DNA from: Synechococcus sp. WH 7803
GTDB lineage: Bacteria; Cyanobacteriota; Cyanobacteriia; PCC-6307; Cyanobiaceae
DNA: 64,000 bases
Reading direction: 5' to 3'
NCBI GenBank assembly: GCA_000063505.1
Contig: CT971583.1
Coordinates: forward strand, 1,209,918-1,273,917
The notes below the pieces were generated by a model. It made no database searches. It was not told the DNA's origin and saw only the letters and a list, made by a program, of their open reading frames with translations. Shown in pieces: positions 2,766 to 61,535 of the stretch. The number at the start of each line of letters is the position of its first letter. The first letter of the stretch is position 1. Both the position numbers and the translations under genes were made by a program.

Positions 2766-3518
2766 TTACCGACCGTCAGCCAATTGTCGCGCCGGTTCGA
2801 ACGCACGCAGAGCCTCTGACGTTCCTTCAAAACGCCAATGCCACGGTTCGTAGCTCACCCCCTGGGGATTGACGGTGGGAAATGAAAGTGTGAAGTGATA
2901 ACTCGCCGCATGATCTTGCAACCAACGGAAGGCGCTCGTGTTTTCAAACGATTGCGACAGGTTGGTGGCGGGATCGTCGCCATCTCCGAGATCAACGGCG
3001 TAGCCGGTGCTGTGCTCTGAATAGCCAGGTGGTGCAGACACCTTGGCCCGTTCCGCTGCGGATTGGTTGCGCTCCGACTTCACATCAAAAAAGATACTTT
3101 TCTGTAAATCGTGGGAGCGATAACCGCTGAGAAGGCGTAGATCCACCCCATCCGCTGCTGCTGATCGACGCATGGCATCGAGTGCACGCGCTGCATCACG
3201 GTGCAGTTCAATCCCAGCTTCCACCGGTACGAGAACGTCAACACCAGCCTCGGGGTAAGGAAAGTGTCCGAGCAAACGCCCATCGCCTGAAGGGCGAGCA
3301 TCGATCCCCTCAATCGGTGCCGGAGAACGTTTGGCGTTCAACAACTCCGGGACAAACAGAACCGTGGCAAGGGATGCGGAGAAAACCAGTCCACAGGCCA
3401 ACAGCAGACCTAAACCACTGCGACGCTTGGGAACTGCCGATCGGCTGCGACGCGCCACCGGAATATCGTCGCGGTTGAGATCGCGGGATCTGCTGCGGCT
3501 GGCGACAGCCCGTGACAC
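2766..3518 (-). CDS. D-alanyl-D-alanine carboxypeptidase, VanY/M15B family, membrane anchored
   Basis: Protein of 250 residues with a basic N-terminus, one membrane segment at about residues 38-57, then a periplasmic M15B domain. The zinc motif SEHSTGYAVDLGDGD (SxHxxGxAxD) and the later EPWHW (ExxHW) supply the expected two histidines, aspartate and catalytic glutamate. The family trims the terminal D-Ala from peptidoglycan stem peptides. It sits immediately upstream of the U32 gene. A separate VanX-like dipeptidase lies 6 kb away; no VanS/VanR/VanH ligase set is present, so wall recycling or maturation is more likely than glycopeptide resistance. The start is the first ATG; a shorter start is possible because the N-terminus is low complexity. 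Confidence 0.85.
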   Translation of the reverse strand: MSRAVASRSRSRDLNRDDIPVARRSRSAVPKRRSGLGLLLACGLVFSASLATVLFVPELLNAKRSPAPIEGIDARPSGDGRLLGHFPYPEAGVDVLVPVEAGIELHRDAARALDAMRRSAAADGVDLRLLSGYRSHDLQKSIFFDVKSERNQSAAERAKVSAPPGYSEHSTGYAVDLGDGDDPATNLSQSFENTSAFRWLQDHAASYHFTLSFPTVNPQGVSYEPWHWRFEGTSEALRAFEPARQLADGR

Positions 3519-3627: not shown

Positions 3628-5001
3628 ATGCTGAGAGTTGCCGTCGTCGGAGGTGGTCCGAGCGGATCCTGCGCAGCCGAGATTCTGGCCAAGGCTGGCA
3701 TCAGCACCTGGTTGTTCGAGCGAAAGCTCGACAACGCCAAACCTTGTGGTGGAGCGATTCCTCTCTGCATGGTCGAGGAATTCGATCTGCCGGAATCGAT
3801 CATCGACCGCAAGGTGCGGAACATGAAAATGATCTCCCCCTCCAACAAGGAGGTGGATATCAAGCTTGATCCGCTCGGGTACGACGACAACGCTTATATC
3901 GGGATGTGCCGCCGTGAGGTTTTCGATGCCTTCATGCGCAACCGTGCCGCTGACCTTGGCACAACCCTGGTCAATGGTCTTGTTCAGAAGATCGACACCG
4001 GCAATGCACGTCAGGGTCCTTACACCCTGCATTACGCCGACTACAGCTCGGGGGGTCCGACCGGCGAACTGAAAACCCTTGAGGTGGACCTGATCATCGG
4101 AGCCGACGGTGCCAATTCCCGTGTGGCCAAAGCAATGGATGCTGGTGATTACAACGTGGCCATCGCATTTCAGGAACGCATCAAACTGCCTCCTGAAGAG
4201 ATGACTTACTACGAAGATCTCGCCGAGATGTACGTCGGGACCGACGTCTCTCCCGATTTTTACGCCTGGGTCTTTCCGAAATACGACCATGTGGCCGTGG
4301 GAACAGGGACCATGCAACAGAACCAGTCCCTGATCAAGGGGTTGCAAAAGGGAATCCGTGAGCGCGCCCGCAAGCGCTTGTTCAAAGGTGAAGTGATCAA
4401 AGTTGAAGCCCATCCGATTCCGGAACATCCCAGACCGCGTCGTGTCGTTGGGCGAATGGCTCTGGTGGGTGATGCTGCCGGTTACGTCACCAAGAGCTCC
4501 GGTGAAGGCATCTACTTTGCTGCCAAAAGTGGGCGGATGTGCGCTGAAGCCATTGTTGAGATTTCAGCGAACGGCAGCCGCGTCCCCACTGAAAAGGAGA
4601 TCAAGTCCACCTATCTCAAGCGTTGGGATCGTAAGTACGGAGCCACCTACGCCGTTCTCGACATTCTTCAACGGATTTTCTATCGCAACGATGCGGCCCG
4701 CGAAGCATTCGTCGAAATGTGTGACGACCGGGATGTGCAGAAACTCACGTTTGACAGCTATCTGTACAAGAGGGTGGTGTTGATGAATCCCTGGCAGCAA
4801 ATCAAACTCACCCTGCGTACCCTTGGCAGCCTGCTTCGTGGTGAAGCCCTTGCTCCTGCTGGTTACGACGCTGTTCCCTCCGCTGTGGGGCGGTCAGAGG
4901 GAGATTTCCTGGCCGATGAAGCAGCCCAGGCCATTAAGGCGCAGGCTCACAACGAATCCACCGCAGAGCCGAAAGAGCGCCCCACCGTCACCACAGGCTG
5001 A
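3628..5001 (+). CDS. chlP: Geranylgeranyl diphosphate/geranylgeranyl-chlorophyll reductase ChlP
   Basis: Protein of 457 residues, normal for the family. It begins with a flavoprotein dinucleotide-binding motif (VAVVGGGPSGSCAAE), then the KPCGGAIP stretch typical of geranylgeranyl reductases, DLIIGADGANS in the middle and GDAAGYVTKSSGEGI near residue 290, the second FAD-contact region. ChlP reduces the geranylgeranyl chain to phytyl for chlorophyll a and tocopherol. It is convergent with glyS; a perfect inverted repeat sits between the two stops. Confidence 0.96.
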   Translation: MLRVAVVGGGPSGSCAAEILAKAGISTWLFERKLDNAKPCGGAIPLCMVEEFDLPESIIDRKVRNMKMISPSNKEVDIKLDPLGYDDNAYIGMCRREVFDAFMRNRAADLGTTLVNGLVQKIDTGNARQGPYTLHYADYSSGGPTGELKTLEVDLIIGADGANSRVAKAMDAGDYNVAIAFQERIKLPPEEMTYYEDLAEMYVGTDVSPDFYAWVFPKYDHVAVGTGTMQQNQSLIKGLQKGIRERARKRLFKGEVIKVEAHPIPEHPRPRRVVGRMALVGDAAGYVTKSSGEGIYFAAKSGRMCAEAIVEISANGSRVPTEKEIKSTYLKRWDRKYGATYAVLDILQRIFYRNDAAREAFVEMCDDRDVQKLTFDSYLYKRVVLMNPWQQIKLTLRTLGSLLRGEALAPAGYDAVPSAVGRSEGDFLADEAAQAIKAQAHNESTAEPKERPTVTTG

Positions 5002-5010
5002 ATCTCTGAG

Positions 5011-5041
5011 CAGCTGAATCTGCATGATGCAGATTCAGCTG
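5011..5041. terminator. Perfect 14-bp inverted repeat between convergent chlP and glyS
   Basis: The 14 bases at 5011-5024 are exactly reverse-complementary to 5028-5041, with a 3-base loop (tga). The hairpin starts 9 bp after the chlP stop and ends 11 bp before the glyS stop, so it is placed to stop transcription from both sides. Neither side has a clear T-run, so it is a terminator-like or RNA 3'-end-stabilising hairpin rather than a canonical intrinsic terminator. Confidence 0.65.
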
Positions 5042-5052
5042 CAATCTCATCT

Positions 5053-7212
5053 TTAGCTTTGGATATGGTCGAATCGAGCCAAAACTGAGGCTTGATTGCG
5101 CAGCACTCCCAGCAGGTTGAGGCGATTTCGCCTCACTGATGGGTCTTCAGCCATCACCATCACGCTGTCGGAGCCATCAAAGAACGCTTCAAGCGCACGG
5201 GCTGCTCCTTGAAGTCTCTGAGCCAAACGCTCGTAGTCTTTCGCTTGGGCCAGGGGGCTCAAGGCTTCGAGTTCCACAAGCAGCGCAGCTTCACTCGGTG
5301 AATCAAAGAGGAAGGCATCCACGATGCCTTCAACAGAGAGCTTCGACGGAGGCAAGTCGCCTTTTTCAGCCAGACGGGATGCACGCTGGACAACAGCTTG
5401 AAGGTCTTGCAGTCGGCCAGATTCTCGCAGTGTCTTCAACAGCAGAAGGCGATCCCGTGCATCCACCGGATCCTCCAGCAAGCGCTCGGTGCTCACCCCT
5501 TCCCCACAGACGGCCTGCACCAGATCGATCGCAAATCCATCGTCTTCGAATTGGGACACCATGCGCTGACAGAGCAGCTGTCCGAGATCGTTGGCGAGGG
5601 CTTCAGCTTCAACATTGAAGGCTGGAAAACGCTCAGCCCAGTGCGTTGATGCGGTTGTGAAGAGTGACTGCAGAGGCAGTTGCCAACCCCGATTCCAGAG
5701 GATCTGAACAATTCCATTGCCGGCTCTGCGAAGGGCATAGGGATCAGAGGATCCCGTCGGTCGCTGACCTTTGGCAAAAATGCTCAGCAGCAATTCGATG
5801 CGTTCCGCTAAAGCCAACAGGGCACCAGCGTCACTGGCAGGGAGCGCATCACCGGAACCAGCAGGCAGATAGTGCTCTGCAACCGCAAGAGCCACGCCTC
5901 TGGGCTCTCCTTCTTCAAGCAGATACTTGCCGCCCATCAATCCCTGCAGTTCAGGGAATTCTCCAACCATCTGACAGACAAGATCGTGCTTGCAAAGGTG
6001 GGCGGCACGTCTGGCATGGCTGGCGACCGTCCCTTCGAGCTGAAGCGCAAGCAGCAATTGGTCCATGACCCAACTGATGCGTTCACTTCGATCGAGAAGC
6101 GACCCCAAACCCTCAGCAAAGGTGACACGCTCCAGGCTTTGCCGTCGCTGCTCACTGGACTGACGCCGATCAACATTGAGGAAGAACTCAGCATCGGCTA
6201 GCCGGGCCCCAAGAACGCGTTGATTTCCGCTGACAATGGTGTCTGAAGCGGACTCCACTCCATTGCTAACCAGCAGGAATTCAGGCTTCAGAACGTTTCG
6301 GGCCTGAAGCTGCAAAGGGTCTGAAACAGCCTGCGGGATCCGCAAAGGCACGTAACGCTGATGGGCTTGCATCACCGTGACAATCACTTCGGGTGGCAGC
6401 TCTAAAAAGCGATCCGCAATCCGGCCTTTCAGCACCGATGGGCTTTCAACTAGATCAACAAGTTCCTGAAACAGCGACTCTGGGCAATCAGCTTGTCCAT
6501 CACAGCGCTCGGATTCCGAGACGATCGCCGCGCGAATGGTTTCAGCCCGTTGCTCACGGTTCACCATCACCCCGGCGTCGTTGAGTTGCCTCAGAAGGTC
6601 CTCGGCAGAGTTCACCTCCTGAAGCTGTTCATGCAAACGATGACCACGGCTTGTGCGTCCGCTGGTCACCACAGGGTCTGCAGTATCAAGAGTCACAGGA
6701 ATGACGGCATCCCCCAGCATCACCACCAGCCAACGCACCGGTCGACTGAAGCGCTGCTCTCCACAGCCCCAACGCATGAATCGACGACCCTGCAGTGCAT
6801 CGATCCATCGGGGAACACACTCTCCAAGCAGTGCGGAACTGGGTTGGCCTGGAGTCTTGACCCGTGCAAATAGACAAGGGCCTTTCGGCGTGTCCTTGGG
6901 CTGGAGATCTTCTGGATCGACGCCACAGCGCTTGGCAAAACCGATGGCAGCGGGTCCAGGTCGGCCATCCACTAAGGCCTGGGAAACTGGTGGACCTTTG
7001 CGGTCTTCTTCCAGATCGGGCTGAGAATCGATCAGTTCCCTGACGACCACAAGTAGTCGACGCGGTGTTCCCGTCACGGACAGTTCCCCGTGGGCCAGGC
7101 GCAGATCCTTGAGATCGCTACGAATCCTCTGCTCCAATTGCCGAAGAGCCGAGGGAACGAAATCGGCGGGAAGTTCTTCAGTGCCGATCTCAAGAAGGAA
7201 CGTGTTCGCCAC
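5053..7212 (-). CDS. glyS: Glycyl-tRNA synthetase beta subunit
   Basis: Protein of 719 residues starting TFLLEIGTEELPADFVPSAL, the characteristic opening of the beta chain of the heterotetrameric bacterial enzyme. Later landmarks are QHQRYVPLR-like (MQAHQRYVPLRI), GNQRVLGARLADAEFF, and the ARG/HD-like C-terminal region (SDPYALRRAGNGI). The beta chain binds tRNA-Gly and works with the alpha chain (glyQ), which is not in this window. Monocistronic and convergent with chlP. Confidence 0.96.
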   Translation of the reverse strand: MANTFLLEIGTEELPADFVPSALRQLEQRIRSDLKDLRLAHGELSVTGTPRRLLVVVRELIDSQPDLEEDRKGPPVSQALVDGRPGPAAIGFAKRCGVDPEDLQPKDTPKGPCLFARVKTPGQPSSALLGECVPRWIDALQGRRFMRWGCGEQRFSRPVRWLVVMLGDAVIPVTLDTADPVVTSGRTSRGHRLHEQLQEVNSAEDLLRQLNDAGVMVNREQRAETIRAAIVSESERCDGQADCPESLFQELVDLVESPSVLKGRIADRFLELPPEVIVTVMQAHQRYVPLRIPQAVSDPLQLQARNVLKPEFLLVSNGVESASDTIVSGNQRVLGARLADAEFFLNVDRRQSSEQRRQSLERVTFAEGLGSLLDRSERISWVMDQLLLALQLEGTVASHARRAAHLCKHDLVCQMVGEFPELQGLMGGKYLLEEGEPRGVALAVAEHYLPAGSGDALPASDAGALLALAERIELLLSIFAKGQRPTGSSDPYALRRAGNGIVQILWNRGWQLPLQSLFTTASTHWAERFPAFNVEAEALANDLGQLLCQRMVSQFEDDGFAIDLVQAVCGEGVSTERLLEDPVDARDRLLLLKTLRESGRLQDLQAVVQRASRLAEKGDLPPSKLSVEGIVDAFLFDSPSEAALLVELEALSPLAQAKDYERLAQRLQGAARALEAFFDGSDSVMVMAEDPSVRRNRLNLLGVLRNQASVLARFDHIQS

Positions 7213-7270: not shown

Positions 7271-9097
7271 GTGGCCGCTTCGCTAGCTTCGAGAGGTTGC
7301 TGCAGCTCTTTGCCGGTGAGTCAGTCCAGTGTGGAATCCGCCACGGAATCAACCACTACCAGGCTGCCGAAGGCTGAGCAACGCAAGCTCGACAGTCATC
7401 ACCTGCGGGACCCCCTGCTGGATGAACTCGCGAACGATCTTCCCTTCTTCAGTGAGGATGCCCTTCAACTGCTGAAGTTCCACGGGAGCTACCAGCAAGA
7501 TGATCGCGATAAAAGGGAGAAGGGAAAAGACAAGACCTGGCAAATGATGCTGCGCCTGCGCAGTCCTGCCGGTCGCATCCCTGCCCAGTTGTTCCTGGCC
7601 ATGGATGACCTGTCCAACCGCCTCGGTGATGGATCCCTGCGCGCCACGACGCGACAGGCCTTTCAAATGCATGGCATCCCGAAAGGGGACCTGAAAGAAG
7701 TCATTGGAACCATCGTGGAAAACATGGGTTCCACCTTGGCGGCCTGTGGAGACATCAACCGCAATGTCATGGCACCGGCTGCTCCTTACGCCAAAGGGGC
7801 TTATCCAGCGGCTCGCCAATTGGCCGACGAGATTGCCGATGTTCTCAGCCCCGAAGCCGCTGAATCCTCATACCTCGACTTGTGGATCGATGGCGACCTC
7901 AGTTACCGCATTCGTCCTTCACGATCGGTGAAGGCAGCACGCCTCCGTCAACGCGATGCCGGCGTGTTCTCCGGCAGCGACGACGAGCCTCTCTACGGAG
8001 ACACCTATCTCCCCAGAAAGTTCAAAGTGGCCGTGACGGTCCCTGGGGACAACTCCGTCGACCTTCTGACCCAGGACATTGGCCTTGTGGCGTTCACCGA
8101 TGCCGCAGGTGCTCTGCTCGGCTGCAATGTGTATGTGGGCGGCGGCATGGGCCGCACCCACAACAAAGAAGAGACTTTCGCGAGGGTTGCTGATCCCCTT
8201 GGCTACGTCGCAGCAGGCGATGTGCTCGATCTCGTGCAGTCGATCCTGGCCCTGCAGCGCGATCACGGTGATCGTCAGATCCGGCGTCATGCCCGGATGA
8301 AATATCTTCTTCACGACAAAGGCGTGTCCTGGTTCAGGACCGAACTCACGCAGAACTATTTCCGCGGTGAGCTCAAAGGTCTTCGCAACGAGCCGAAAGC
8401 CAAGCTCAGTGATTACCTCGGCTGGCACCGACAGCAGCCCGGTGTTTGGTTTGTTGGCATTCCATTGCTGTGCGGACGCCTTGAGGGATCCTTCAAGGCA
8501 GGGCTCCGCGACATCGTGGATCGCTACCAGCTCGAGCTGCGTTTAACACCCAATCAAGACGTGCTCCTCTGCAACATCGGCAGTGCTCAGCGCAATTCCG
8601 TGCGTGACGCGTTGTCGGATCTTGGAATGCAAATGCCGGAAGCACCCCCACCGCTGGCTCGTCACGCCATTGCTTGCCCTGCCTTACCCACATGCGGATT
8701 AGCCATTACTGAATCCGAACGCATCCTTCCCAAGGTGCTCGAGCGGCTGGATGCCCAACTCAGCAGGCTTGAAATCGAGAAGTCACTCCTGTTCCGCATG
8801 ACGGGATGTCCCAATGGTTGTGCCCGTCCATACATGGCAGAGCTCGCACTGGTCGGCAGCGGTGTGAATCAGTATCAGCTGTGGCTTGGTGGCAGCGCCA
8901 ATCTTCAGCGCTTAGCGAAACCCTTTCTGCAACGCATGCCATTGGATGAACTTGAAAGCACGCTGGAACCGCTGCTTGTGAGCTGGAAGCAGGCTGGTGG
9001 TCGGAGAGGTTTTGGTGATCACGTGAACCGGCTCGGTGATGAGCGCGTGGCTGAACTGCTCGCCGCAGCGCACGCGTCACCATCCACGCGGCCGTAA
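7271..9097 (+). CDS. sir: Ferredoxin-dependent assimilatory sulfite reductase
   Basis: Protein of up to 608 residues. The N-terminal siroheme domain contains the substrate-site region RATTRQAFQMHGI and GDINRNVMAP. The C-terminal half has the two cysteine pairs that bind the 4Fe-4S/siroheme centre, CPALPTC and CPNGC. The pattern is sulfite, not nitrite, reductase (SIRHP family). It reduces sulfite to sulfide with six electrons from ferredoxin. The longest start is a GTG at 7271 with AGGAG 9 bases upstream; an internal GTG at 7316 would remove 15 poorly conserved residues. The last 79 bp overlap the 3' end of the convergent dipeptidase gene. Confidence 0.93.
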   Translation: MAASLASRGCCSSLPVSQSSVESATESTTTRLPKAEQRKLDSHHLRDPLLDELANDLPFFSEDALQLLKFHGSYQQDDRDKREKGKDKTWQMMLRLRSPAGRIPAQLFLAMDDLSNRLGDGSLRATTRQAFQMHGIPKGDLKEVIGTIVENMGSTLAACGDINRNVMAPAAPYAKGAYPAARQLADEIADVLSPEAAESSYLDLWIDGDLSYRIRPSRSVKAARLRQRDAGVFSGSDDEPLYGDTYLPRKFKVAVTVPGDNSVDLLTQDIGLVAFTDAAGALLGCNVYVGGGMGRTHNKEETFARVADPLGYVAAGDVLDLVQSILALQRDHGDRQIRRHARMKYLLHDKGVSWFRTELTQNYFRGELKGLRNEPKAKLSDYLGWHRQQPGVWFVGIPLLCGRLEGSFKAGLRDIVDRYQLELRLTPNQDVLLCNIGSAQRNSVRDALSDLGMQMPEAPPPLARHAIACPALPTCGLAITESERILPKVLERLDAQLSRLEIEKSLLFRMTGCPNGCARPYMAELALVGSGVNQYQLWLGGSANLQRLAKPFLQRMPLDELESTLEPLLVSWKQAGGRRGFGDHVNRLGDERVAELLAAAHASPSTRP

Positions 9098-9798
9098 ACA
9101 GCGATCGACTCCGCAACCGTCCAGGCCCACAGCTGATCCCCGTGGCTGAAATGCCACCACTCATTGGGATGACGCACAAAACCCGCTTGTTTCATGGCGG
9201 CATGCAAGCTGCACCGTCTCTGGTGCCAGAGAGCTTCTGGGCTGTTGGGATTGGCCTTCGCAGCGGATGCATGGTGGTCTGGCAGGGATTCAGAGCCGAT
9301 GGCATCGAAGGCTCCCCCCATGTTCAAAGCCGCTCCACGCTGATCGGCCAGCGTTAAATCGATCGCTGCACCCGTGCTGTGGGGAGGCGGCATGGAGCGA
9401 TCCTCGCTGGGTGGCGCCCAGAACCGTGAAACCTCGCGCTTAACCTCATCCAGTGCCGTCTGCCATTGGGGCTTCGACGGATTGAGGCCACGACGTCCAC
9501 ATTCCTCCTCAATCGCGTGCTCGATCATGAAGGCTTGAACACTGACTGGACGCCAGGCATCCAACACAAGGAGCTGAAGCGGGCCGACCTCGGGGTCCGG
9601 ATGCTGAATGAGTTGGTTCTGCGCTCGCACCAGTCGCGCGATCACACTTGCGCGCAGCCTGAAGGGATCACCCTGATCTCCGTAGGGGGCACCGAGTTTT
9701 GCGTAGGGATGGGGCTCAAGACAGAGGAACGTCCCTCTGAGCGACTGCAGCGGTTCACCGCACTCCTTGATGGCCACATCACTCCAAGGCCGGCGCAT
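9019..9798 (-). CDS. D-alanyl-D-alanine dipeptidase, VanX/DdpX family
   Basis: Protein of 259 residues. It has VLDAWRPVSVQ (the VanX arginine loop), the zinc motif PHSTGAAIDLTL (HxxxxxxD) and NEWWHFSHG with the catalytic Glu and third ligand His. Members hydrolyse free D-Ala-D-Ala. Without vanA/vanH neighbours, a role in peptidoglycan turnover or D-Ala recovery is likely. The gene runs against sir and shares 79 bp with its coding end; the C-terminal tail (rich in Ala and Ser) lies entirely in the overlap and is probably not essential for catalysis. Confidence 0.88.
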   Translation of the reverse strand: MRRPWSDVAIKECGEPLQSLRGTFLCLEPHPYAKLGAPYGDQGDPFRLRASVIARLVRAQNQLIQHPDPEVGPLQLLVLDAWRPVSVQAFMIEHAIEEECGRRGLNPSKPQWQTALDEVKREVSRFWAPPSEDRSMPPPHSTGAAIDLTLADQRGAALNMGGAFDAIGSESLPDHHASAAKANPNSPEALWHQRRCSLHAAMKQAGFVRHPNEWWHFSHGDQLWAWTVAESIAVYGRVDGDACAAASSSATRSSPSRFT

Positions 9799-9838
9799 CG
9801 TTGATCTTGCAATCAGACGAACTCTATTGATCAGCTCC

Positions 9839-12370
9839 TTAATTCAACTGCGCCGCAGACGTCACCCGGTTGCGTTGCGCATCCAGCAGGCTGCGCAGCA
9901 CAGAGTGATCGATCAGATCAGGATCGTTGCGGAGAATATCGGCCGCTTCTTCCCGAGCTTCCTCCAAAACGGAGCCATCATCAGCCAGGCTGGCCAAAGC
10001 CAGGTCCGGCAACCCGGACTGGCGAGTCCCCAGCACCTGGCCGGGACCACGAAGTCGCAAGTCCATTTCGGCGATTTCGAAACCGTCGGTTGAGCGCACA
10101 AGCACTTCAAGCCTTTGCCGGGCCAGGGGGTTGCGACTGTCGTTGATCAGCAAGCATCGGGATGCGGCCGCACCTCTGCCAACCCGCCCACGGAGCTGGT
10201 GAAGTTGGGCCAATCCGAAACGATCGGCATGATCAATCATCATCACGCTGGCTTCCGGAACATCCACACCAACCTCCACAACGGTTGTGGACACCAGAAC
10301 CTGCGTCTCACCTTTCGCGAACGCCTGAATCACCGCCTGCTTGTCCACACTTGGCAACCGTCCATGCAGGAGTCCGACCTTGAGATCTGGAAACACCTCA
10401 TCCTCAAGCTGACGATGCACATCAACGGCTGAGCGCAAGTCCATTTTTTCTGACTCTTCCACCAGGGGAAGCACCACATAGGCTCTCTGACCTTTCTCCA
10501 CCTCTTCGCGGATCAAGCTGTAGGCCTGATCGCGCTCAGAGCCGGCCAGCATTGTGGTCATGATCGGCGTGCGGCCAGGGGGGAGCTCATCGATCTGACT
10601 GACGTCGAGATCACCATGAAGCGACAACGCCAGCGTCCGCGGAATCGGTGTCGCCGTCATCGTGAGCAGATGGGGTTGCAGCCCTTTTCCAAGAAGTCGA
10701 TTGCGCTGACGCACCCCAAAGCGGTGCTGTTCATCGACAACCACCAATCCAAGACGTTCGAAGGCCACGGGATCTTCGAGAAGGGCGTGAGTCCCCACGA
10801 GAACCTTGCAGGCCCCGGAAGCCACATCGGCGAGAAGGCGCCGACGCTTCTTCAGCGGCGTGGAACCGGTGAGCAACTCAACCGTGACATGCAAAGGGGG
10901 GAGCCATTGGCAGAGACTGCGGTAGTGCTGTTCAGCTAGCACCTCGGTGGGGGCCATCATGGCTCCCTGTAATCCAGCCTGAATGGCCTTGAGCAAGGCA
11001 GCGACCGCAACAACGGTTTTGCCGCTGCCCACATCACCCTGCACCAACCGTGCCATGGGTTCCGAGCGCTCGAGATCGGCATCAATTTCTGCCAGCACTC
11101 TGGTTTGAGCGTTTGTGAACTGGAACGGAAGATTGTTCAGGAATCGACTCAGGAGACCGTCTCGATCCGACGTGATCTTCAGGGATGGCGCTGTTCGTTG
11201 GCGCAGTGCCGCCCTGCGCTGCATCAATCCAAGCTGGAGCAGCAGAAATTCATCAAAGACAAGCCGGTGACGGGCCTGTTGGAGTTGCTCGGATGACTCC
11301 GGTCGATGGATCGCCGTCATGGCCTGGTGCCGATGCAGCAGCTGCCTGGCCTGGCGTCGTTGAGCCGGCAGTGGCTCGGGCCACAAACGGATGGATGGCA
11401 GGGTTGCCTCCACCAAGCTCCTGAAACGATCCGCTGTCAGTCCTTCGGTCAGGGAATACACCGGTAGAAGCCGGCCGATGCGTTTGGATTGCAAAGGAGC
11501 CTGGGGACTCTCCATCACCTCAATCAGCGGATCCTGAAAGCTGCGGCCGTAAGGCCCGTCCTTGACCAGTCCGCTCACTGCGACGGTGGCTCCATTCGGA
11601 TAGAGCCTGGTCTGTCCATGGAGATAGGAGGGGTTGCTAAAGCGGCGACCGGCGAGGAAGCGGCTGACTTTGATCCGTCCGGTGGGATCTTGCAGCTGCA
11701 GTTCGATGATCGACAGATTGGGGTTTCTCGGACTTGTGAAACCGTGACAGCGACGGACCGTGGCCACGATGGTGGCCGTTTCCCCAGGAACTAAGGCCTC
11801 AATCCGGCGTAAAGCGGAATAGTCCACATAGTCCCTGGGGTAGTGCAGCAATAAATCTCTGACCACCAGCAGCCCGAGGCTGGCCAAGCGTTCCGCCTGC
11901 TTGGGACCAATGCCTCGAACCCGTGACAGCGGTGCGTCGAGAGAGAGATCTCCCTGCTGATTGGCTGCAGCCGCCGTGCTGCGAGTGGCAACCTTCAATT
12001 TGGGAGGTGCCATCGGTCGCGTGGGTTCTAGGCGCTGACGCAGGGCGTGAAGCCACTGCCTCACCGTTGTGACAAGGCGCCGACGCGCAGCATCACTGAG
12101 GGAGGGATAAGACTGAAATTCATGGCAGAACGCCTGAAGGCGCTCCTCGCAATCGGGCGGGAACGCGCCTGCTGGTGGAGCACCCAACTCACGGCTCATG
12201 AATCCGTGAAAGGTGTCCTGACGGCCTTGAACATTGACGAATCCACGATCCGCCTCAAGCGCCAGCGCTTGTTGAAGCGGGCGTAGCCAAATATGAAAAC
12301 GTTCTAGGGACTGATGATCCAGCCCAGAACTCAATGATGCGGAGGACTCTCCGTTTGGTTGGGCCACCAA
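9839..12370 (-). CDS. recG: ATP-dependent DNA helicase RecG
   Basis: Protein of 843 residues, with the N-terminal extension usual in cyanobacterial RecG. A helix-hairpin region (LSRVRGIGPKQAERLASLGL) precedes the OB/wedge domain. Helicase motifs follow: GDVGSGKT (Walker A), VVDEQHRFGVRQR (DEQH box), MTATPIPRTLA (motif III) and QLRGRVGRG (motif VI). RecG reverses stalled forks and migrates Holliday junctions. Translation can start at TTG 12370 or the adjacent GTG 12367; there is no in-frame ATG nearby. The first 99 codons lie in a 373-bp block repeated at 14244-14616. Upstream of the start is the fragmentary C-terminus of the protein encoded intact at 14500-15666, showing that the two genes once overlapped. 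Confidence 0.96.
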   Translation of the reverse strand: MVAQPNGESSASLSSGLDHQSLERFHIWLRPLQQALALEADRGFVNVQGRQDTFHGFMSRELGAPPAGAFPPDCEERLQAFCHEFQSYPSLSDAARRRLVTTVRQWLHALRQRLEPTRPMAPPKLKVATRSTAAAANQQGDLSLDAPLSRVRGIGPKQAERLASLGLLVVRDLLLHYPRDYVDYSALRRIEALVPGETATIVATVRRCHGFTSPRNPNLSIIELQLQDPTGRIKVSRFLAGRRFSNPSYLHGQTRLYPNGATVAVSGLVKDGPYGRSFQDPLIEVMESPQAPLQSKRIGRLLPVYSLTEGLTADRFRSLVEATLPSIRLWPEPLPAQRRQARQLLHRHQAMTAIHRPESSEQLQQARHRLVFDEFLLLQLGLMQRRAALRQRTAPSLKITSDRDGLLSRFLNNLPFQFTNAQTRVLAEIDADLERSEPMARLVQGDVGSGKTVVAVAALLKAIQAGLQGAMMAPTEVLAEQHYRSLCQWLPPLHVTVELLTGSTPLKKRRRLLADVASGACKVLVGTHALLEDPVAFERLGLVVVDEQHRFGVRQRNRLLGKGLQPHLLTMTATPIPRTLALSLHGDLDVSQIDELPPGRTPIMTTMLAGSERDQAYSLIREEVEKGQRAYVVLPLVEESEKMDLRSAVDVHRQLEDEVFPDLKVGLLHGRLPSVDKQAVIQAFAKGETQVLVSTTVVEVGVDVPEASVMMIDHADRFGLAQLHQLRGRVGRGAAASRCLLINDSRNPLARQRLEVLVRSTDGFEIAEMDLRLRGPGQVLGTRQSGLPDLALASLADDGSVLEEAREEAADILRNDPDLIDHSVLRSLLDAQRNRVTSAAQLN

Positions 12371-12447
12371 TGGGTTTGAACCTCTCTGGCGCTGCTGCGA
12401 CGTTGCCAGTGTCGCTCCTTCACCACAAGAGTGGAGAGTGCTCGCCG
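12075..12447. repeat. Direct repeat copy A (373 bp), continuous with functional recG
   Basis: Matches 14244-14616 in the same orientation with five substitutions and no indels (offset 2169). It holds the first ~99 codons of recG and the last 39 codons (with stop) of the conserved protein encoded upstream. Copy A is native on its left side (it runs into the rest of recG) and abruptly joins a ROK-kinase fragment at 12448 on its right. Relative to copy B, three of the five differences change recG residues (Arg-Gln to Pro-Lys, Ser to Pro). Confidence 0.97.
12331..12447 (-). pseudogene. Duplicated 3' end of the conserved protein gene at 14500-15666
   Basis: This stretch codes for the last 38 residues plus stop of the 388-residue protein encoded intact downstream (ending WWPNQTESPPHH). 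It has no start or upstream part: the frame is cut at 12447 where the ROK fragment begins. It is a by-product of the 373-bp duplication and overlaps the recG start, as the intact gene must have done before the insertion. Confidence 0.85.
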
Positions 12448-12608
12448 ATCATTTTCTTCCGGAGGCCCGTCGCGAGGTGGAGCAACGGGTGCAGGCGGTC
12501 TCGCGTGAAGGCTTGAGGATCGAGGCCTGTACTCTCGGCAATGGAGCCGGTCGGCTGGGAGCAGCCAAGCTCGCTCTGCAACGGCTGGCTTTAAACCATT
12601 CGACTTGA
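12448..12608 (+). pseudogene. C-terminal fragment of a ROK-family sugar kinase/repressor
   Basis: Read rightwards, about 53 codons end at TGA 12606. The translation (EARREVEQRV...EACTLGNGAGRLGAAKLAL) resembles the C-terminus of ROK proteins, where a conserved Leu-Gly-Asn-x-Ala-Gly-x-x-Gly-Ala-Ala stretch closes the kinase fold. There is no start codon or N-terminal part; the frame begins exactly at the end of direct repeat A. It is the 5' edge of the inserted segment and cannot encode a working kinase. Confidence 0.7.
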
Positions 12609-12638
12609 TCTGATCCGAGCGGTCAGATCGAGACTTTT
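12607..12638 (+). terminator. Hairpin plus short T-run after the ROK fragment
   Basis: GATCTGA at 12607-12613 pairs with TCAGATC at 12623-12629, and an inner CC/GG pair extends the stem. GAGACTTTT follows on the + strand. It overlaps the ROK stop and the 3' end of the convergent gene, as expected for the original terminator of the ROK gene, carried in with the fragment. The T-run is only four long. Confidence 0.45.
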
Positions 12639-13426
12639 AGCCCAATGAGTTTCCAGCTGAAACCTTCCATGACGTAAGAGTACGTGAATGTATAAGGCGG
12701 ATCGATCGTGTAACGGCCTTTGATGATCAACACGTTTTGATCATTGATGATGGCTTCTTCTGTGAAGGCAGGAGTGCTTCTCGTTAGGTTATTGAGATAA
12801 GTAAGTGATTGTTTGTTTTTGCTGAGCTTTAAAAATGGTTTGAATGCTTGTTCGAGTTGATCTGGTGAGGCTTCATTTTGCCAAGTCTTTGAAATGGCAT
12901 TGTAGAGCTTTTGAAAATTATTTTCTTTGATGGATGACGCAAAAAGGTCTGTTGTTTCAGCTGTAATCGCAAGAAGTTCTTTTTCGCTTGGCACGCCTTC
13001 TGACGCGCTGGAAATCACGCCAGATCGTTTTTCTTTAATTGAAAAAATTAACCAGTCAGAACCGCTTTTTTGGAACGAAATGGTGACTGGGATGGTGGTG
13101 CCATTTTCAAGGTTAATACTCCCTTCCAGTGTTCCGGTATTCGTGGAAATGGAGCGATTGCTCCAGGACGTGTTCTTGAAATCGTCTAAGGAATTTGCGC
13201 GTGCAAAGGTTTTTAGCTCTCTTTCTAGTGTTTGATCATCAACTTGTTGTGAGAATAATTGCATGGCGGCCTTTGTGTTCCCTTCTTTGAGCTCGCTGAA
13301 GAGTTTGTCTGCGGCTGCGGTTAGACCTGATGTTGCCTGAAAGATAATAGCGACTAAAATTGCAATAATGGCTGCCAGACTTCCCAGTCCGATCAAAAGG
13401 ATTTGAAAGAATTTGGGCATTTTCAT
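12623..13426 (-). CDS. AT-rich membrane-anchored protein with two NTF2-like (DUF4878/DUF4864-type) repeats
   Basis: Protein of 267 residues, unrecognised by name. Residues ~7-31 form one hydrophobic segment (FFQILLIGLGSLAAIIAIL). Two similar alpha+beta units follow, about 37-130 and 155-267. Each starts with a helix of the type 'FxxxLKxxNxxxAxxLF' and ends in a hydrophobic strand containing a Trp (SDWLIFSIK; FSWKLIGLKV), as in small NTF2-like lipoprotein domains. The gene is visibly AT-rich with abundant AAA/TTT codons, unlike all neighbours, which suggests foreign origin. It is the only intact gene in the repeat-flanked insertion and lies between ROK and proA remnants. It is read on the recG strand, so it could drive recG transcription. 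Function unknown. Confidence 0.8.
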   Translation of the reverse strand: MKMPKFFQILLIGLGSLAAIIAILVAIIFQATSGLTAAADKLFSELKEGNTKAAMQLFSQQVDDQTLERELKTFARANSLDDFKNTSWSNRSISTNTGTLEGSINLENGTTIPVTISFQKSGSDWLIFSIKEKRSGVISSASEGVPSEKELLAITAETTDLFASSIKENNFQKLYNAISKTWQNEASPDQLEQAFKPFLKLSKNKQSLTYLNNLTRSTPAFTEEAIINDQNVLIIKGRYTIDPPYTFTYSYVMEGFSWKLIGLKVSI

Positions 13427-13534
13427 TGTTTAACAATCGTTCTGCAAAGATGATTTGTTGATTGGATCATTGTAGGGCAAAGTTTGGTCCTGGTTGAATG
13501 TTATTGATTGGGTTTGTCTGGCGGGCAAAGTGTC

Positions 13535-14243
13535 ATGAGTTCCATTCCTGTGCCCTCCGCTGACTTGCTGCAACGGACGGGGGCTGTCCAGCTTGAAGCG
13601 GTCGCGCTGGGACAGACCTCTGATGAGCAGCGCGCTCATGCCCTGCAGGCGATGGCCGACGCCCTGGCTGCAGAGGCGGATGTGATTGTTGCGGCCAACC
13701 GGGAGGATCTGGAGCACTCAGCTGCCGAGGGCCTTGCCCCTGCGCTGATGGCACGCCTGAAGCTCGATCGGACGAAGCTGGCCGCAGCGATCGACGGTGT
13801 ACGCAAAGTGGCGGCGCTCGAGGACCCCCATGGCCGCAGGGCGCTGCACCGGGAGCTGGACGAAGGGTTGGTGTTGGAGCGGCTGACCGTGCCCCTCGAG
13901 GTGGTGAGTGTGATTTTTGAAGCGCGGCCCGATGCAGTGGTGCAGATTGCCTTTCTGGCGATTCGATCCGGGAAAGGGGCCATCCTCAAAGGCGGCAGTG
14001 AAGCCCGCTGCACCAACAATGCTGTGATCCTGGCTCTGTAGCGCCTCGGTGGTCTCGTAGATCTGATCATGCCCCGCGGCAGCAATGAACTGGTCCGCTT
14101 CATCCAGGACAACATCCGGATTCCCGTGCTCGGGCATCCCGATGGCATCTGTGATCTGTACGTGGATGCAGCGGCCGACACGGACCTGGCGCTGCGGGTC
14201 GCTCTCGACAGCAAGACCCAGGACCCGGCCTGTAATGCCATCG
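13535..14243 (+). pseudogene. proA: Gamma-glutamyl phosphate reductase (proline synthesis), decayed 5' part
   Basis: From ATG 13535 the translation is a good ProA N-terminus ([27 protein letters not shown]). It then meets TAG at 14039. Reading resumes in the same frame with [21 protein letters not shown] and continues through [14 protein letters not shown] and [12 protein letters not shown], which includes the catalytic Cys region. Roughly 40 residues normally found between the two parts are missing, one Ala codon near the catalytic Cys seems lost, and the gene stops at 14243 where direct repeat B begins. About a third of the protein (the C-terminus) is absent. A functional proA presumably exists elsewhere in the genome. 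Confidence 0.92.
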
Positions 14244-14539
14244 AGGCGCCGACGCGCAGCATCACTGAGGGAGGGATAAGACTGAAATTCATGGCAGAAC
14301 GCCTGAAGGCGCTCCTCGCAATCGGGCGGGAACGCGCCTGCTGGTGGAGCACCCAATTCACGGCTCATGAATCCGTGAAAGGTGTCCTTAGGGCCTTGAA
14401 CATTGACGAATCCACGATCCGCCTCAAGCGCCAGCGCTTGTTGAAGCGGGCGTAGCCAAATGTGAAAACGTTCTAGGGACTGATGATCCAGCCCAGAACT
14501 CAATGGTGCGGAGGACTCTCCGTTTGGTTGGGCCACCAA
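14244..14539 (-). pseudogene. Duplicated N-terminal fragment of recG (about 98 codons)
   Basis: Same frame and start (TTG 14539 or GTG 14536) as functional recG, with about 98 codons nearly identical to it, then cut at 14244. Beyond the junction the frame stays open leftwards through antisense proA to 13718. A gene finder may therefore report a 240-300-residue chimera with no biological parent. The fragment carries neither OB fold nor helicase motifs. Confidence 0.85.
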
Positions 14540-14616
14540 TGGGTTTGAACCTCTCTGGCGCTGCTGCGACGTTGCCAGTGTCGCTCCTTCACCACAAGAG
14601 TGGAGAGTGCTCGCCG
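14244..14616. repeat. Direct repeat copy B (373 bp), continuous with the intact upstream gene
   Basis: Second copy of the block at 12075-12447. On its right it continues into the intact 388-residue protein gene; on its left it joins the proA fragment abruptly. Of five differences from copy A, the one inside the C-terminus of the 388-residue protein (CAT versus CAC, His) is silent there but changes Ser to Pro in the recG frame, as expected if only that protein is under selection in this copy. Confidence 0.97.
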
Positions 14617-15666
14617 TTGATGCTGGAGACGTCCGCGGCAACGGCGGAGAGCGTGATCATCGAATTCCAGTTCGGAGCTGCGCAGCAGCAAGCATTGCGC
14701 TTCGTAAGACTGCTGATCACCAGCCGTTGGTAGGGGCAGCTGAAGCTTCAGAAGATTGGACTGGGTGGCTTCCGATGGAATATGACCGTTCAAGGCAGCC
14801 TCCAGAAGCTGAATAGGCAACAGGCTTCGAATGATTCCCGCACGCATCAGCTCCACGTTGAGCGCATGGGACAGGTTGCGCAAACGCCGGCTGAGAGCCG
14901 CATCAATCCCCTCCATCCAGACCAGCAGAGCGCTTGGTGAGGTGGGCATCAACTGATTCGATTCAGTGCCATCCAACCTGGGAAGGGGATCTGTCGAGTC
15001 CGTGGATTCCGTGGAAGATTCTCTGGGTTCGATGGCTTCACCAGCGAGCACAAACAACGACCGGAGCAGGTCAAGCTCTGTCGTCTCCTGAGGGGGAGGG
15101 AGGTCATCTTGGGACGGCTCATCCATCTCGCAATCAGGCGACTCCTCAACGGTCTCCTGTGCAGGGAAGAGGCCTTCAATCAGGTCTGGACGTTCCAGGG
15201 GAAGGGACAGGCCGAGATGAACTTCCTCACAAACCCCGGGTGCAGCCGGTTGTTCAGCAGAAGGCTGTTCAGCAGCAGATTGTTCAACAGATGGCTGTTC
15301 AACAGCCGTGGTCAGTGCCTGGACTTGCAGCAGCCGGTTGCGTTGCGCATCGCGACGCAGACGATCGGCCGTGACCAGAAGCTGCTCAACTGTGATCAGA
15401 GACGTGGTTCTCTGTACCAGGGCATCAACACGCCGAAGCAGATCGTCCACTCCATCCGCTCTGCGGATGGTTGGATCGACACTGCGCGCACAAACAAGGT
15501 GCTTGATGGCTGTACGCACAGCTCTGGAGAGCTGATCGCGCACGATCTGAAGGTAGAGCGCCTCTTCCCGGTAAAGAACAGGTGTAAGGGAGCGACACCG
15601 GCGACCCAGACGCTCCAACTGGAGGTCTGGGTCGTGACGATGTCGGCTCTCCGAATCAGCCCCCAA
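14500..15666 (-). CDS. Conserved cyanobacterial protein of unknown function, upstream partner of recG
   Basis: Protein of 388 residues, not recognised by name. The N-terminal ~125 residues are helical and basic (RLGRRCRSLTPVLYREEALYLQIVRDQL). A middle segment of about 125 residues is acidic, rich in Glu/Gln/Pro/Ser and probably disordered, including a short EQP-type repeat. The C-terminal ~130 residues are again helical (LLVWMEGIDAALSRRLRNLSHALNVELMRAGI). The stop lies inside the duplicated block and overlaps the duplicated recG start. It starts 2 bp after the tsf stop, so it reads from the rpsB-tsf side. Its link to RecG is positional only. Confidence 0.8.
   Translation of the reverse strand: MGADSESRHRHDPDLQLERLGRRCRSLTPVLYREEALYLQIVRDQLSRAVRTAIKHLVCARSVDPTIRRADGVDDLLRRVDALVQRTTSLITVEQLLVTADRLRRDAQRNRLLQVQALTTAVEQPSVEQSAAEQPSAEQPAAPGVCEEVHLGLSLPLERPDLIEGLFPAQETVEESPDCEMDEPSQDDLPPPQETTELDLLRSLFVLAGEAIEPRESSTESTDSTDPLPRLDGTESNQLMPTSPSALLVWMEGIDAALSRRLRNLSHALNVELMRAGIIRSLLPIQLLEAALNGHIPSEATQSNLLKLQLPLPTAGDQQSYEAQCLLLRSSELEFDDHALRRCRGRLQHQRRALSTLVVKERHWQRRSSAREVQTHWWPNQTESPPHH
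15248..15307. repeat. Four 15-bp tandem repeats in the disordered middle of the 388-residue protein
   Basis: Units beginning at 15248, 15263, 15278 and 15293 share the core tgttcarcag and encode a repeated five-residue motif (xxEQP or SxEQ) in the protein. The array is imperfect and in frame, so copy-number changes by slippage would only lengthen or shorten the linker. Confidence 0.8.
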
Positions 15667-15668
15667 AA

Positions 15669-16328
15669 TCAGCCCTTGGTCATCGAAGCCACTTCAGCGG
15701 CGAAATCATTTTCCTCAACTTCAATGCCCTCGCCGAGGGTGTAGCGCGTGAAACGGCGAACCTTCACGTTCTCGCCGATCTTGCCGGCCGTTTGCTTCAC
15801 CAGTTCAGCAACAGTGAGGGAGCTGTCTTTGATGAAAGGTTGCTCCATCAGGGCCAGTTCCTTCAGACGCTTGTTGATCCGGCCTTCGACGATCTTCTCC
15901 TTCATCTGCTCAGGCTTGCCATCGAGGTCATCGCGACCCATTTCAATGGCCTTCTCGCGTTCGCGGATCTCAGAGGGAATGTCATCGGTGTTGACGTACT
16001 CCACGCCTGGACAGGCAGCCACTTGCATGGACACGTCTCTGAGCAGTTCCTGGAACATGTCACCACGGGCGACGAAATCGGTTTCGCAGTTGATTTCGAT
16101 CAGCACGCCCACACGGGCGCCTGTGTGGATGTAACTGCCGATGGCTCCTTCAGCAGCAGTTCGGCCTGATTTTTTCTCAGCACTGGCAATACCTTTCTGG
16201 CGAAGCCATTCGATGGCTTTGTCAGCATCGCCGTCGGTGGCTGCAAGTGCTTTCTTGCAATCCATCATTCCAGCGCCGGTCTTGTCGCGCAGGTCCTTAA
16301 CGAGCTTGGCGGATACGGCAGCGGCCAT
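15669..16328 (-). CDS. tsf: Elongation factor Ts
   Basis: Protein of 219 residues from ATG 16328 ([20 protein letters not shown]). It shows the UBA-like N-terminal domain, the TDFVAR core motif ([11 protein letters not shown]) and [21 protein letters not shown] near the C-terminus. It is the short cyanobacterial/chloroplast form. EF-Ts releases GDP from EF-Tu. An in-frame ATG at 16358 lies within the hairpin region behind rpsB, so the shorter start is preferred. It follows rpsB in the usual order. Confidence 0.96.
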
Positions 16329-16356
16329 CAGAGGAGAAGGAGAGGAGTGTTTGGAC

Positions 16357-16392
16357 AAAAAGCCGCCCTTCCCGATTCATCGGAAGGGCGGC
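16357..16392 (-). terminator. Intrinsic terminator/attenuator between rpsB and tsf
   Basis: GCCGCCCTTCC at 16362-16372 pairs with GGAAGGGCGGC at 16382-16392, loop of nine bases. On the minus strand the stem is followed by TTTTT. It lies 24 bp after the rpsB stop and 29 bp before the tsf start, so part of the rpsB transcription should end here, leaving tsf to readthrough or a separate promoter. Confidence 0.8.
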
Positions 16393-16415
16393 GTGAACTT
16401 AGCGGCTCGCGGGAC

Positions 16416-17135
16416 TCAGCCTTCGCTGCCGTCACCACCACGCTGTTCATTCGAGCCGTGACGGCCTTCATTGATGGCATCGGCCAAACGGCTCAGCACC
16501 AACTGAACGGAACGCACAGCGTCGTCGTTGCAAGGAATGGGGACCTCACAGAGATCGGGATCACAGTTGGTGTCCAGCATGGACACCAGAGGAATATCCA
16601 ATTTGCGGGCCTCGAGCACCGCATTCGTTTCCCGGCGTTGATCGACCAGCACCACCACATCGGGAAGACGGCGCATGTTCTTCAGACCACCCAGATACTT
16701 CTGGAGACGATCCAGTTCACGGCGAAGAACAGCACCCTCCTTCTTGGGGCGCATGGCGATGGCTCCGCTGGCCTCCATGCGCTCCAGGTCCTTGAGACGA
16801 TCGATCCGGGCCTTCATGGTGGTCCAGTTGGTGAGCATGCCGCCCAACCAGCGTTGGTTCACGTAGGACCCACCGCAACGCAGGGCCTCCTGGGCCACAA
16901 CTTCAGACGCTTGCTTCTTGGTTCCCACGAACAGGAAACGTTTGCCGCTTCTTGCAGCAGAACGCACCCATTTGTAGGCGTTGTTCATGCAGACAGCGGT
17001 CTGCACGAGGTCAATGATGTGGACCCCGTTACGCGCGCAATAGATGTAGCGCGACATTTTGGGATTCCAACGACGGGTCTGGTGTCCAAAGTGGGCACCA
17101 GCTTCCATCATCTCAGCGAGAGTGACGACAGCCAT
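16416..17135 (-). CDS. rpsB: 30S ribosomal protein S2
   Basis: Protein of 239 residues from ATG 17135 ([26 protein letters not shown]). It contains [21 protein letters not shown] and the conserved [19 protein letters not shown], all hallmarks of S2. Length is normal. An upstream in-frame start exists at 17165 but adds non-conserved residues. First gene of the rpsB-tsf pair. The 130 bp upstream hold its promoter region; no clear motif was identified. Confidence 0.97.
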
Positions 17136-22033: not shown

Positions 22034-23350
22034 TTGCACAGAATGGGACTTTGCCACGGGACCCTGACAGCGATCTCCTCCGGTCCTGCACTGGATTACC
22101 TCACTCTCCCGAACCAAAGCACTCTGGTCTCTGCAGAACTACCGGGTGCCGGTCTGACCTGCCTTGATTTCTGGTGTCGGGGAGGAAGCTTCTGGGAACA
22201 GGCAGGCGAGGAGGGCATCGCTCACTTTCTCGAGCACATGGTGTTCAAAGGCAGTGAGCTATTGCAACCAGGAGAGTTTGATCGCCAAATCGAAGCCCTT
22301 GGCGGCAGCAGCAATGCTGCAACCGGCTTCGATGACGTGCACTTTCACGTTCTCGTTCCACCCAAGGAAACACCAGCAGCGCTCAAGCTGCTGCTTGATC
22401 TGGTCCTGCGTCCATCCCTGGAACAGGACTCGTTCGCCATGGAGCGCGAGGTGGTTCTCGAGGAAATCTCTCAGTACCGCGATCAACCCGATGATCTCGT
22501 TTTCCAAAAAGTGCTGGAACTCGCGTTCCCCAACCATCCCTACGGCCGGCCGATCCTCGGAATCGACACCAGCTTGAAGGCGATGAATCCCTCGGGAATG
22601 CGTCAATACCACCATCGCCGTTACCAGGGGCCGAACTGCTGCCTTGCTGTCGCCGGTGCGATCCCTGGTGATCTCATCAACCACGTGAGAGACAGCGCGC
22701 TTTCCGCATTGAGCGAAGGGGGTCAAAGCGCAGCACAACACCCACCTGCCGGTGAGTCCCCCTCTGCCAATCCGCTTCCCTTTCAAAAGGGAAGGGACTG
22801 CCAAAGCTTTGCCAGGCTTGAGTCAGCGCGCCTTCTCATGGTCTGGCCAACCGCCGCGGCGGCGGATCCCATCGCGGTAGCGGGCGCTGATCTGGCGACA
22901 ACAATTCTGTCCGAGGGACGTCGGAGCCGACTGGTGCAACGGCTGCGCGAAGATCTTCAGATCGTTGAATCCATCGATATGGATGTGACGACCCTTGAGC
23001 AGGGAAGCCTGGTGATGCTTGAGGCATGTTGCCCGGAAGAGCAACTGGAACGGGTTGAACTGGAGATTCGACAGGAACTGCAGCGCAGCGCTGAAGCCCC
23101 CGTTCTCGAGGAGGAGCGACAGCGAGCTCTTCATTTGGTGGGCAATGGACTGCGCTTCAGCCTTGAAGCCCCCGGTGCGGTTGCTGCCTGTGCGGGCTCC
23201 CAAGCCGTTTGGGGACGGCAGCGGCAACTGCTCGACCCTCTCAACGATCTCGAACAGTGGACCCCGGAGGCCCTGAAGGACGATGTCATGCAGACACTGC
23301 AGCCCGACCAGGCCTTCACGTTGATCGCCCGCCCTGCGGAATCAGCATGA
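22034..23350 (+). CDS. M16 (insulinase/processing-peptidase-like) zinc peptidase, catalytic subunit
   Basis: Protein of up to 438 residues. The inverted zinc motif HFLEH (HxxEH) is followed ~75 residues later by an EEISQYRDQP stretch supplying the third ligand glutamate. The C-terminal inactive-domain fold (M16_C) follows. The start is uncertain: the first residues are not conserved and another start around residue 10 is possible. Its stop overlaps the next M16 gene (ATGA), so the two are coupled, like the alpha/beta pairing of processing peptidases. Confidence 0.9.
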   Translation: MHRMGLCHGTLTAISSGPALDYLTLPNQSTLVSAELPGAGLTCLDFWCRGGSFWEQAGEEGIAHFLEHMVFKGSELLQPGEFDRQIEALGGSSNAATGFDDVHFHVLVPPKETPAALKLLLDLVLRPSLEQDSFAMEREVVLEEISQYRDQPDDLVFQKVLELAFPNHPYGRPILGIDTSLKAMNPSGMRQYHHRRYQGPNCCLAVAGAIPGDLINHVRDSALSALSEGGQSAAQHPPAGESPSANPLPFQKGRDCQSFARLESARLLMVWPTAAAADPIAVAGADLATTILSEGRRSRLVQRLREDLQIVESIDMDVTTLEQGSLVMLEACCPEEQLERVELEIRQELQRSAEAPVLEEERQRALHLVGNGLRFSLEAPGAVAACAGSQAVWGRQRQLLDPLNDLEQWTPEALKDDVMQTLQPDQAFTLIARPAESA

Positions 23351-61463: not shown

Positions 61464-61535
61464 GGGTCGCTAGCTCAGCGGTAGAGCACTCGGCTTTTAA
61501 CCGATTGGTCCTGAGTTCGAATCTCAGGCGACCCA
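61464..61535 (+). tRNA. tRNA-Lys (anticodon TTT)
   Basis: 72 nt. Acceptor GGGTCGC/GCGACCC, D-arm GCTC...GAGC, anticodon stem CTCGG/CCGAT-like with loop CTTTTAA (anticodon TTT), T-loop TTCGAAT. CCA is not encoded. The T54 stem is CTGAG/CTCAG. No integrated element is seen at its 3' end; the two-component receiver gene starts 41 bp downstream. Confidence 0.96.

Follow-up and report, generated by a model that had tools for sequence, protein, structure and literature searches.

An insertion with a 373-bp target duplication between recG and its ancestral neighbour in Synechococcus sp. WH 7803

How can a dense gene cluster accept an insert while keeping two overlapping genes whole? This question is raised by a locus in the free-living marine cyanobacterium Synechococcus sp. 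WH 7803, where recG and its upstream neighbour, a gene for a protein of 388 amino acids (aa), are separated by a 1.8-kilobase (kb) insert that lies between two direct repeats of 373 base pairs (bp). The insert contains the 3' end of a gene for a ROK-family kinase, an intact AT-rich gene, and the 5' part of proA. The whole stretch of DNA that was analysed, here called the window, measures 64 kb and spans positions 1209918-1273917 of a genome that forms one contig of 2,366,980 bases. We found that the window represents the derived state, and that the ancestral site is empty. The locus is a clean case of DNA gain between genera, with the empty site seen in relatives, the insert shown to be foreign, and no mobile element seen, and it shows how a tightly packed cluster can take up an insert without losing either of two overlapping genes.

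The repeat pair and the empty site

An exact comparison of the two repeat copies (Table 1) gave, as stated in an initial annotation that was made from the sequence alone, 373 bp each, no indels and five substitutions; we located the latter at 12188/14357, 12220/14389, 12222/14391, 12293/14462 and 12337/14506. The sequences flanking the two copies are unlike right from the repeat edges, and a repeat finder detected the same pair with a spacing of 2169. Since the only other direct repeat of at least 40 bp in the window, searched with exact 14-base seeds, was one 40-bp pair with 70% identity, the 373-bp pair is far beyond chance. The recG gene is continuous with copy A and the 388-aa gene with copy B. 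Their ancestral overlap of 40 nucleotides (nt), between the TTG start of recG and the stop of its partner, is contained in both copies, and because the duplication spans this overlap both genes are whole. Thus, the proposal in the initial annotation that the two target genes had stayed intact while the donor genes were cut at the repeat edges holds.

To place this layout among relatives, 21 recG loci were examined, consisting of L043-L059, which are the best 17 of 80 rows from a collection of named genomes (the other 63 being more distant), and four congeners (G159, G168, G153 and G167). The four congeners carry a single repeat copy with 78-86% identity, which was checked base by base. Window positions 9002-12453 and 14244-17000 map to one uninterrupted stretch of G159, where the two half-alignments overlap by 379 bp, the repeat plus six; the overlap is also 379 bp in G168, and 364 bp in G153 and G167. 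A gene resembling the 388-aa gene abuts or overlaps recG in 20 of the 21 loci (16 named relatives and the four congeners), and the remaining locus, L050, begins within recG and is uninformative on the neighbour. A genus-wide search of 31 genomes, including the window's own, with at most nine candidates scored per genome, matched the repeat in 19 of 30 congeners, in a single place each. Relatives thus have one copy and a 388-like gene that runs into recG, which makes the empty site ancestral and the insertion, with its duplicated target, a derived state. The single-copy site bears out the earlier claim of an insertion between recG and a former partner. The initial annotation had advised aligning the locus with relatives, and this placed a 388-like gene beside recG in every informative locus; the possibility that the layout was ancestral in all relatives, which it had named as counting against an insertion, did not occur in those examined.

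Table 1. Features of the recG locus, in window positions
Feature	Position	Strand	Description
Repeat copy A	12075..12447		live recG 5' end and 77 bp upstream; dead copy of the 388-aa gene 3' end
Repeat copy B	14244..14616		live 388-aa gene 3' end; dead copy of the recG 5' end (RQ to PK, derived here)
Whole insert, foreign	12448..14243		1796 bp
ROK-family kinase 3' end, foreign	12447..12608	+	53 codons; cut at the copy A edge, first base shared with the repeat
AT-rich gene, intact	12623..13426	-	267 aa; hydrophobic N-terminus; weak DUF3887-like similarity; same strand as recG
proA 5' part, foreign, decayed	13535..14243	+	TAG at 14039-14041; 78-nt and 3-nt deletions; cut at the copy B edge
recG	9839..12370	-	843 aa; TTG start common to relatives; NCBIfam RecG, 1325 bits
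388-aa protein gene	14500..15666	-	ancestral upstream neighbour of recG; without known family

Affinities and condition of the insert

The ROK piece is 89% identical over 141 bp to a gene of G208, a genome of genus g5, and 75% identical to the native gene. For the proA piece, the identity reaches 83% over about 220 bp to G147, also of genus g5, against 71-80% for the native locus. The label ROK was taken from the native full gene, which matches ROK family models with an expectation value (E) of 3e-52, under their naming cut-offs, and the proA piece was recognised as a fragment by NCBIfam proA models. These similarities show that the insert is foreign, as the initial annotation had supposed, and point to another marine picocyanobacterium as its origin. 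The annotation had also suggested looking for an intact ROK-proA locus in the same genome. Such a pair is present at about 749-751 kb, with ROK (296 aa) and proA (441 aa) both open, but at only 71-80% identity it is not the source, and an ectopic copy of the native locus is thereby ruled out. A phage or plasmid origin gained no support, as nothing carrying the slice was found in the plasmid and phage collections searched and the only matches were to proA, in one phage record and two archaeal plasmids. The phage match is a 161-bp proA-like stretch with 74% identity in an unannotated 5.8-kb record titled 'Bacteriophage sp.' from human faeces (MT838051.1:2553-2713).

The AT-rich gene has a GC content of 42%, versus 58% for the window, and its own genome gave no further copy of it. 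Aside from the window's genome, strong homologues were found in only two of 400 family genomes, G175 (46%) and G120 (44%), next to 13 weak matches with 19-25% identity. An order-level search (299 genomes, limit 1e-6) matched the window's genome only, and since neither G175 nor G120 appeared there, both are evidently outside that sample. All three proteins show weak similarity to DUF3887, which for the window's protein is below the Pfam cut-off. The single-sequence structure prediction was too poor to use (mean predicted local distance difference test score, pLDDT, 48), and the order of helices and strands, with two units of a helix followed by a strand, at most fits DUF3887-like domains. A profile search of the PDB gave nothing credible, only weak matches were obtained in PADLOC (unrelated, E 0.032) and PHROGs (E 0.0098), and there was no match in IMG/VR. 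When the three proteins are compared, the window's is the odd one out at 31 residues, that of G175 at 32 and that of G120 at 42. The window's copy is thus not visibly decaying, although most of its branch may predate the insertion. In simulations with indels uncounted, a neutral frame of 267 codons that had diverged as much as the repeats stayed free of stops in about 65% of cases, and one that changed at the proA rate in 28%, so that the open frame alone is weak evidence for selection.

Between ROK and proA, the gap is 7-115 bp in all 31 functional loci in which both genes were measured. Given this gap, the AT-rich gene entered between ROK and proA before or during the transfer. The lack of room in these loci, together with the sporadic distribution of the gene, would suit a mobile cassette that had carried its flanks along. 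However, the ends of the insert fall in ROK and proA and not at the AT-rich gene, and when we looked for a repeat-flanked cassette elsewhere, the homologues in G175 and G120 showed only one 25-bp pair with 76% identity. We therefore regard a mobile cassette as very improbable.

In G175 (L163-L164, G175:C13; about 4602-6860 and 22715-23584), ROK-proA and the homologue of the AT-rich gene share a contig at a distance of about 16 kb, and the gene upstream of the homologue is presumably cytochrome-c-like. The two stretches that flank this homologue are found in the window's genome at 735057-735807, about 180 bp apart and without such a gene. The G120 homologue (L125 9276-10097, G120:C49) has neighbours that we take to be an FKBP-type isomerase, a nickel superoxide dismutase and the maturation protease of the latter.

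The initial annotation had described proA as broken. The gene is indeed cut at the repeat edge, but it is not merely cut, since deletions, an in-frame TAG and changed residues point to decay as well. To quantify this, 39 proA loci were extracted and eight identical rows dropped, leaving 31 functional sequences. The proA piece has changed at 12 of 120 invariant codons, whereas each functional sequence, when left out in turn, showed no more than three (of 123). Functional pairs have as large a proportion of their changes at codon positions 1 and 2 as the proA piece (0.32-0.46), which argues against extra decay, and the signal of relaxed constraint thus consists only of the stop, the deletions and the changes at invariant residues. 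Of the five differences between the repeats, copy B has two derived ones, in the unused recG start, two are probably derived in copy A, as three of the four congeners share the base of copy B, and one is unclear; one of the copy A changes replaces P by S in the live RecG. In the 296 nt of copy B that correspond to unused recG, two, at most three, derived changes have accumulated. When proA was compared with this part, with 270 nonsynonymous sites as an approximation, Fisher's test gave p 0.004 to 0.018, depending on the count, and a looser comparison using all five differences in 373 bp gave p 0.016-0.048. Because proA has changed more than the repeats have diverged, the data suggest that proA was decaying before the insertion, or that the repeats were homogenised by gene conversion. 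Prior decay fits a young insertion, with a divergence of roughly one percent.

A decayed proA beside young repeats would also be explained if the repeat copies had been replaced, as could happen when the insertion was made in another strain or related species and the rearranged locus was received by ordinary homologous exchange. Core regions of picocyanobacteria are well known to undergo homologous exchange, but such exchange accounts for the spread of the structure and not for its origin. Moreover, changes unique to the window are about equally frequent in the repeat (19/258 and 4/115) and in the flanking recG (122/2236) and 388-aa gene (42/943), and no block from a distant species is visible, a test that exchange with a near relative would escape. 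Overall, we find this route unlikely. Faster evolution of the repeat through gene conversion was considered as well, and the contrast between 19/258 and 122/2236 sites is not convincing.

When a foreign slice adjoins a repeat, an assembly artefact or contamination is classically suspected. However, the genome is a single contig, the insert has no second near-identical copy in it, and the two repeat copies differ by substitutions that are apparently derived on both sides. As proA is decayed, it did not come from a healthy contaminant either, and we give this explanation hardly any credence.

Possible routes of insertion

The recipient lost nothing and gained 373 bp, and the edges of the slice lie inside two donor genes. 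Little homology is possible at the junctions, where the bases that donor-like genes could share with the recipient are GCCG, up to 4 bp, at the copy A/ROK edge and AG, 2 bp, at the proA/copy B edge (GAG in five of six aligned relatives, GAA in G284). In the reading that we favour and consider rather likely, a linear foreign piece with the ROK 3' end, the AT-rich gene and the proA 5' part would have been joined illegitimately into the tsf-388-recG cluster, with a long duplication of the target. Template switching would be the likeliest way, and takes a little over half of the weight that we give to this reading. A polymerase that had copied the 373 bp would switch to the foreign strand, copy about 1.8 kb of foreign DNA, and then return 373 bp behind. 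A staggered break that was filled in around a captured fragment would yield the same product. The structure would have been kept because the duplication rebuilt both overlapping genes, and survival likely acted as a filter, as only duplications spanning the gene overlap leave both genes whole. An ectopic slice with a long target duplication was one of two mechanisms offered by the initial annotation; the slice and the duplication fit, but not the idea that the genome's own locus was copied. No transposase, integrase or other recombinase was found in the two main frames of the insert, smaller open reading frames not having been scanned, and there is no inverted pair of at least 20 nt at the insert ends, where shorter ones were not sought; the earlier statement that such elements are missing is confirmed to this extent. 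The duplication, at 373 bp, is not the short target duplication of transposons, and the tRNA attachment of an integrative element or tycheposon-like island is not seen, the two tRNAs of the window lying at 61464 and 63585. For rearrangements in starving E. coli, template switching is the mechanism that has been inferred (PMC3161906). As for possible entry of the DNA, marine picocyanobacteria with PilA3 are described as having comEA and comEC, with competence not known (PMC7994388), and cyanophages are reported to mispackage host DNA (PMC7852597).

The other mechanism in the initial annotation was Campbell-type integration, in which one crossover brings into the chromosome a non-replicating circle that bears both the slice and the 373-bp segment. 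This predicts exactly the observed layout, 373 bp is ample for RecA-dependent recombination, and the five repeat differences could then be strain differences. However, the circle would have to be chimeric, made beforehand by two illegitimate joins to the recG segment, which requires more steps than direct insertion, and the two main frames of the insert that were scanned contain no replication gene. No circular donor was found in 72,556 plasmid records, searched with the whole element, or in 50,697 phage records, searched with the insert only; IMG/VR was searched with the AT-rich protein only. The layout is compatible with a circle, but we judge this origin to be improbable.

Several points weigh against the illegitimate insertion of a linear piece. 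No donor was found in 400 genomes searched at a limit of 1e-45, with the scoring of two candidates in each; outside the window there were only separate ROK and proA matches, so that the bases at the insert edges can be compared with those of donor-like genes only. The possible junction identity of 2-4 bp is within chance. The sequence would look alike after template switching, filling in of staggered ends, or integration of a chimeric circle, and cannot separate these. Insertion of a circle at homologous sequence is also what the authors favour for Arabidopsis genes with target repeats (PMC2869330). Finally, the affinities of the two pieces disagree, with an identity to the G208 copy of 0.88 for ROK and 0.765 for proA. 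In 23 of 23 functional pairs with a ROK identity of 0.86-0.92, proA identity was 0.85-0.93, although these pairs are not independent, as they were drawn from a few related genomes. A tree places the proA piece with the G208 and G284 copies, with a low support of 65 and a long branch of 0.28. The two pieces thus differ either in their closest relatives or strongly in their rates. Because of this disagreement, the slice could be a mosaic or have entered in two steps. Decay may account for part of the difference, and a mosaic donor or two steps for the rest.

The locus is an unusual example of a kind of insertion that has been described before. Nobusato et al. (2000, Gene 259:99) introduced the term insertion with long target duplication for cases in two Helicobacter genomes (PMC1643837, PMC3031569, PMC3154945, PMC4978471), and as in those cases we see, by genome comparison, an empty site in a relative and a long direct duplication of the target. 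Both structural features are thus present, and the cargo differs. In Helicobacter pylori it frequently consists of restriction-modification genes (PMC1643837, PMC3031569, PMC3154945), whereas the present cargo combines a slice of housekeeping genes and a single rare gene. Pfam and NCBIfam gave no restriction-modification family for the AT-rich or the proA frame, and PADLOC gave none for the AT-rich protein. Joining at little or no homology is shared with homology-facilitated and double illegitimate recombination in transformation (PMC2884548). No homologous anchor is visible at this locus. Transformation experiments of that type, in Acinetobacter, reportedly gave insertion with deletion and not a 373-bp duplication. 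Template switching as inferred in starving E. coli also yields duplications and complex joins within one event, but those events rearrange resident DNA (PMC3161906), and the capture of foreign DNA is an extension proposed here. In pneumococcal transformation incoming DNA likewise yields duplicated resident sequence, but there the main mechanism depends on a repeat that donor and host have in common, and the duplications measure about 100-900 kb (PMC3784515). One pneumococcal clone, in which a cassette adjoins a 3,276-bp duplication that lacks flanking repeats and is of unclear mechanism, seems the nearest experimental likeness (PMC3784515). Transposed genes in Arabidopsis are also flanked by direct target-site repeats, but these concern a plant and movement within one genome (PMC2869330). 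Judged by title and the opening of the abstract, none of the papers found to use the term long target duplication is about cyanobacteria, and no account of this locus was found in the literature searched, which mostly excludes subscription journals.

It is tempting, but doubtful, to see insertion with long target duplication as a general route, untied to restriction-modification, by which picocyanobacteria gain single genes in tight clusters without breaking them, with selection on the AT-rich gene or on the position of recG keeping the structure and the repeats acting as a reversible on/off site. One recombination step could erase the insert structure, and because it is so easily reversible, selection on a rare gene of unknown function becomes testable.

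Neighbouring genes

On the minus strand, the ancestral gene order is tsf, the 388-aa gene and recG, and the identity of tsf was confirmed. In the present arrangement, the insert separates recG from the tsf cluster, and the AT-rich gene, which has the same orientation as recG, is now upstream of it. A scan of 12000-14700 gave three promoter-like sites (1.2 expected), all on the plus strand and none directed at recG, and no terminator-like site. Since no terminator-like site was found between the AT-rich gene and recG, read-through is possible, and recG may be driven by the promoter of the AT-rich gene or by one within the repeat. The 40-nt overlap of recG with its partner was read in G159 at 3332 to 3371. 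The longest recG frame has the same length and start in three of the four congeners; in G168 it is 877 aa, with an earlier start open.

In the collection of named genomes, the recG loci closest to that of the window include some from Synechococcus. One locus, L045 (NYVG01000013.1), is titled as a gammaproteobacterial metagenome-assembled genome and carries the tsf-388-recG cluster with a RecG 76% identical to that of the window, so this contig is probably mislabelled or contaminated. The 388-aa protein has no match in Pfam or NCBIfam, and with its presence beside recG in 20 of 20 informative loci, at 29-74% identity, the gene is a conserved unnamed cyanobacterial gene. Within it, three overlapping 30-nt copies with a 15-bp period (15242-15301) encode a stretch rich in EQ, P and A.

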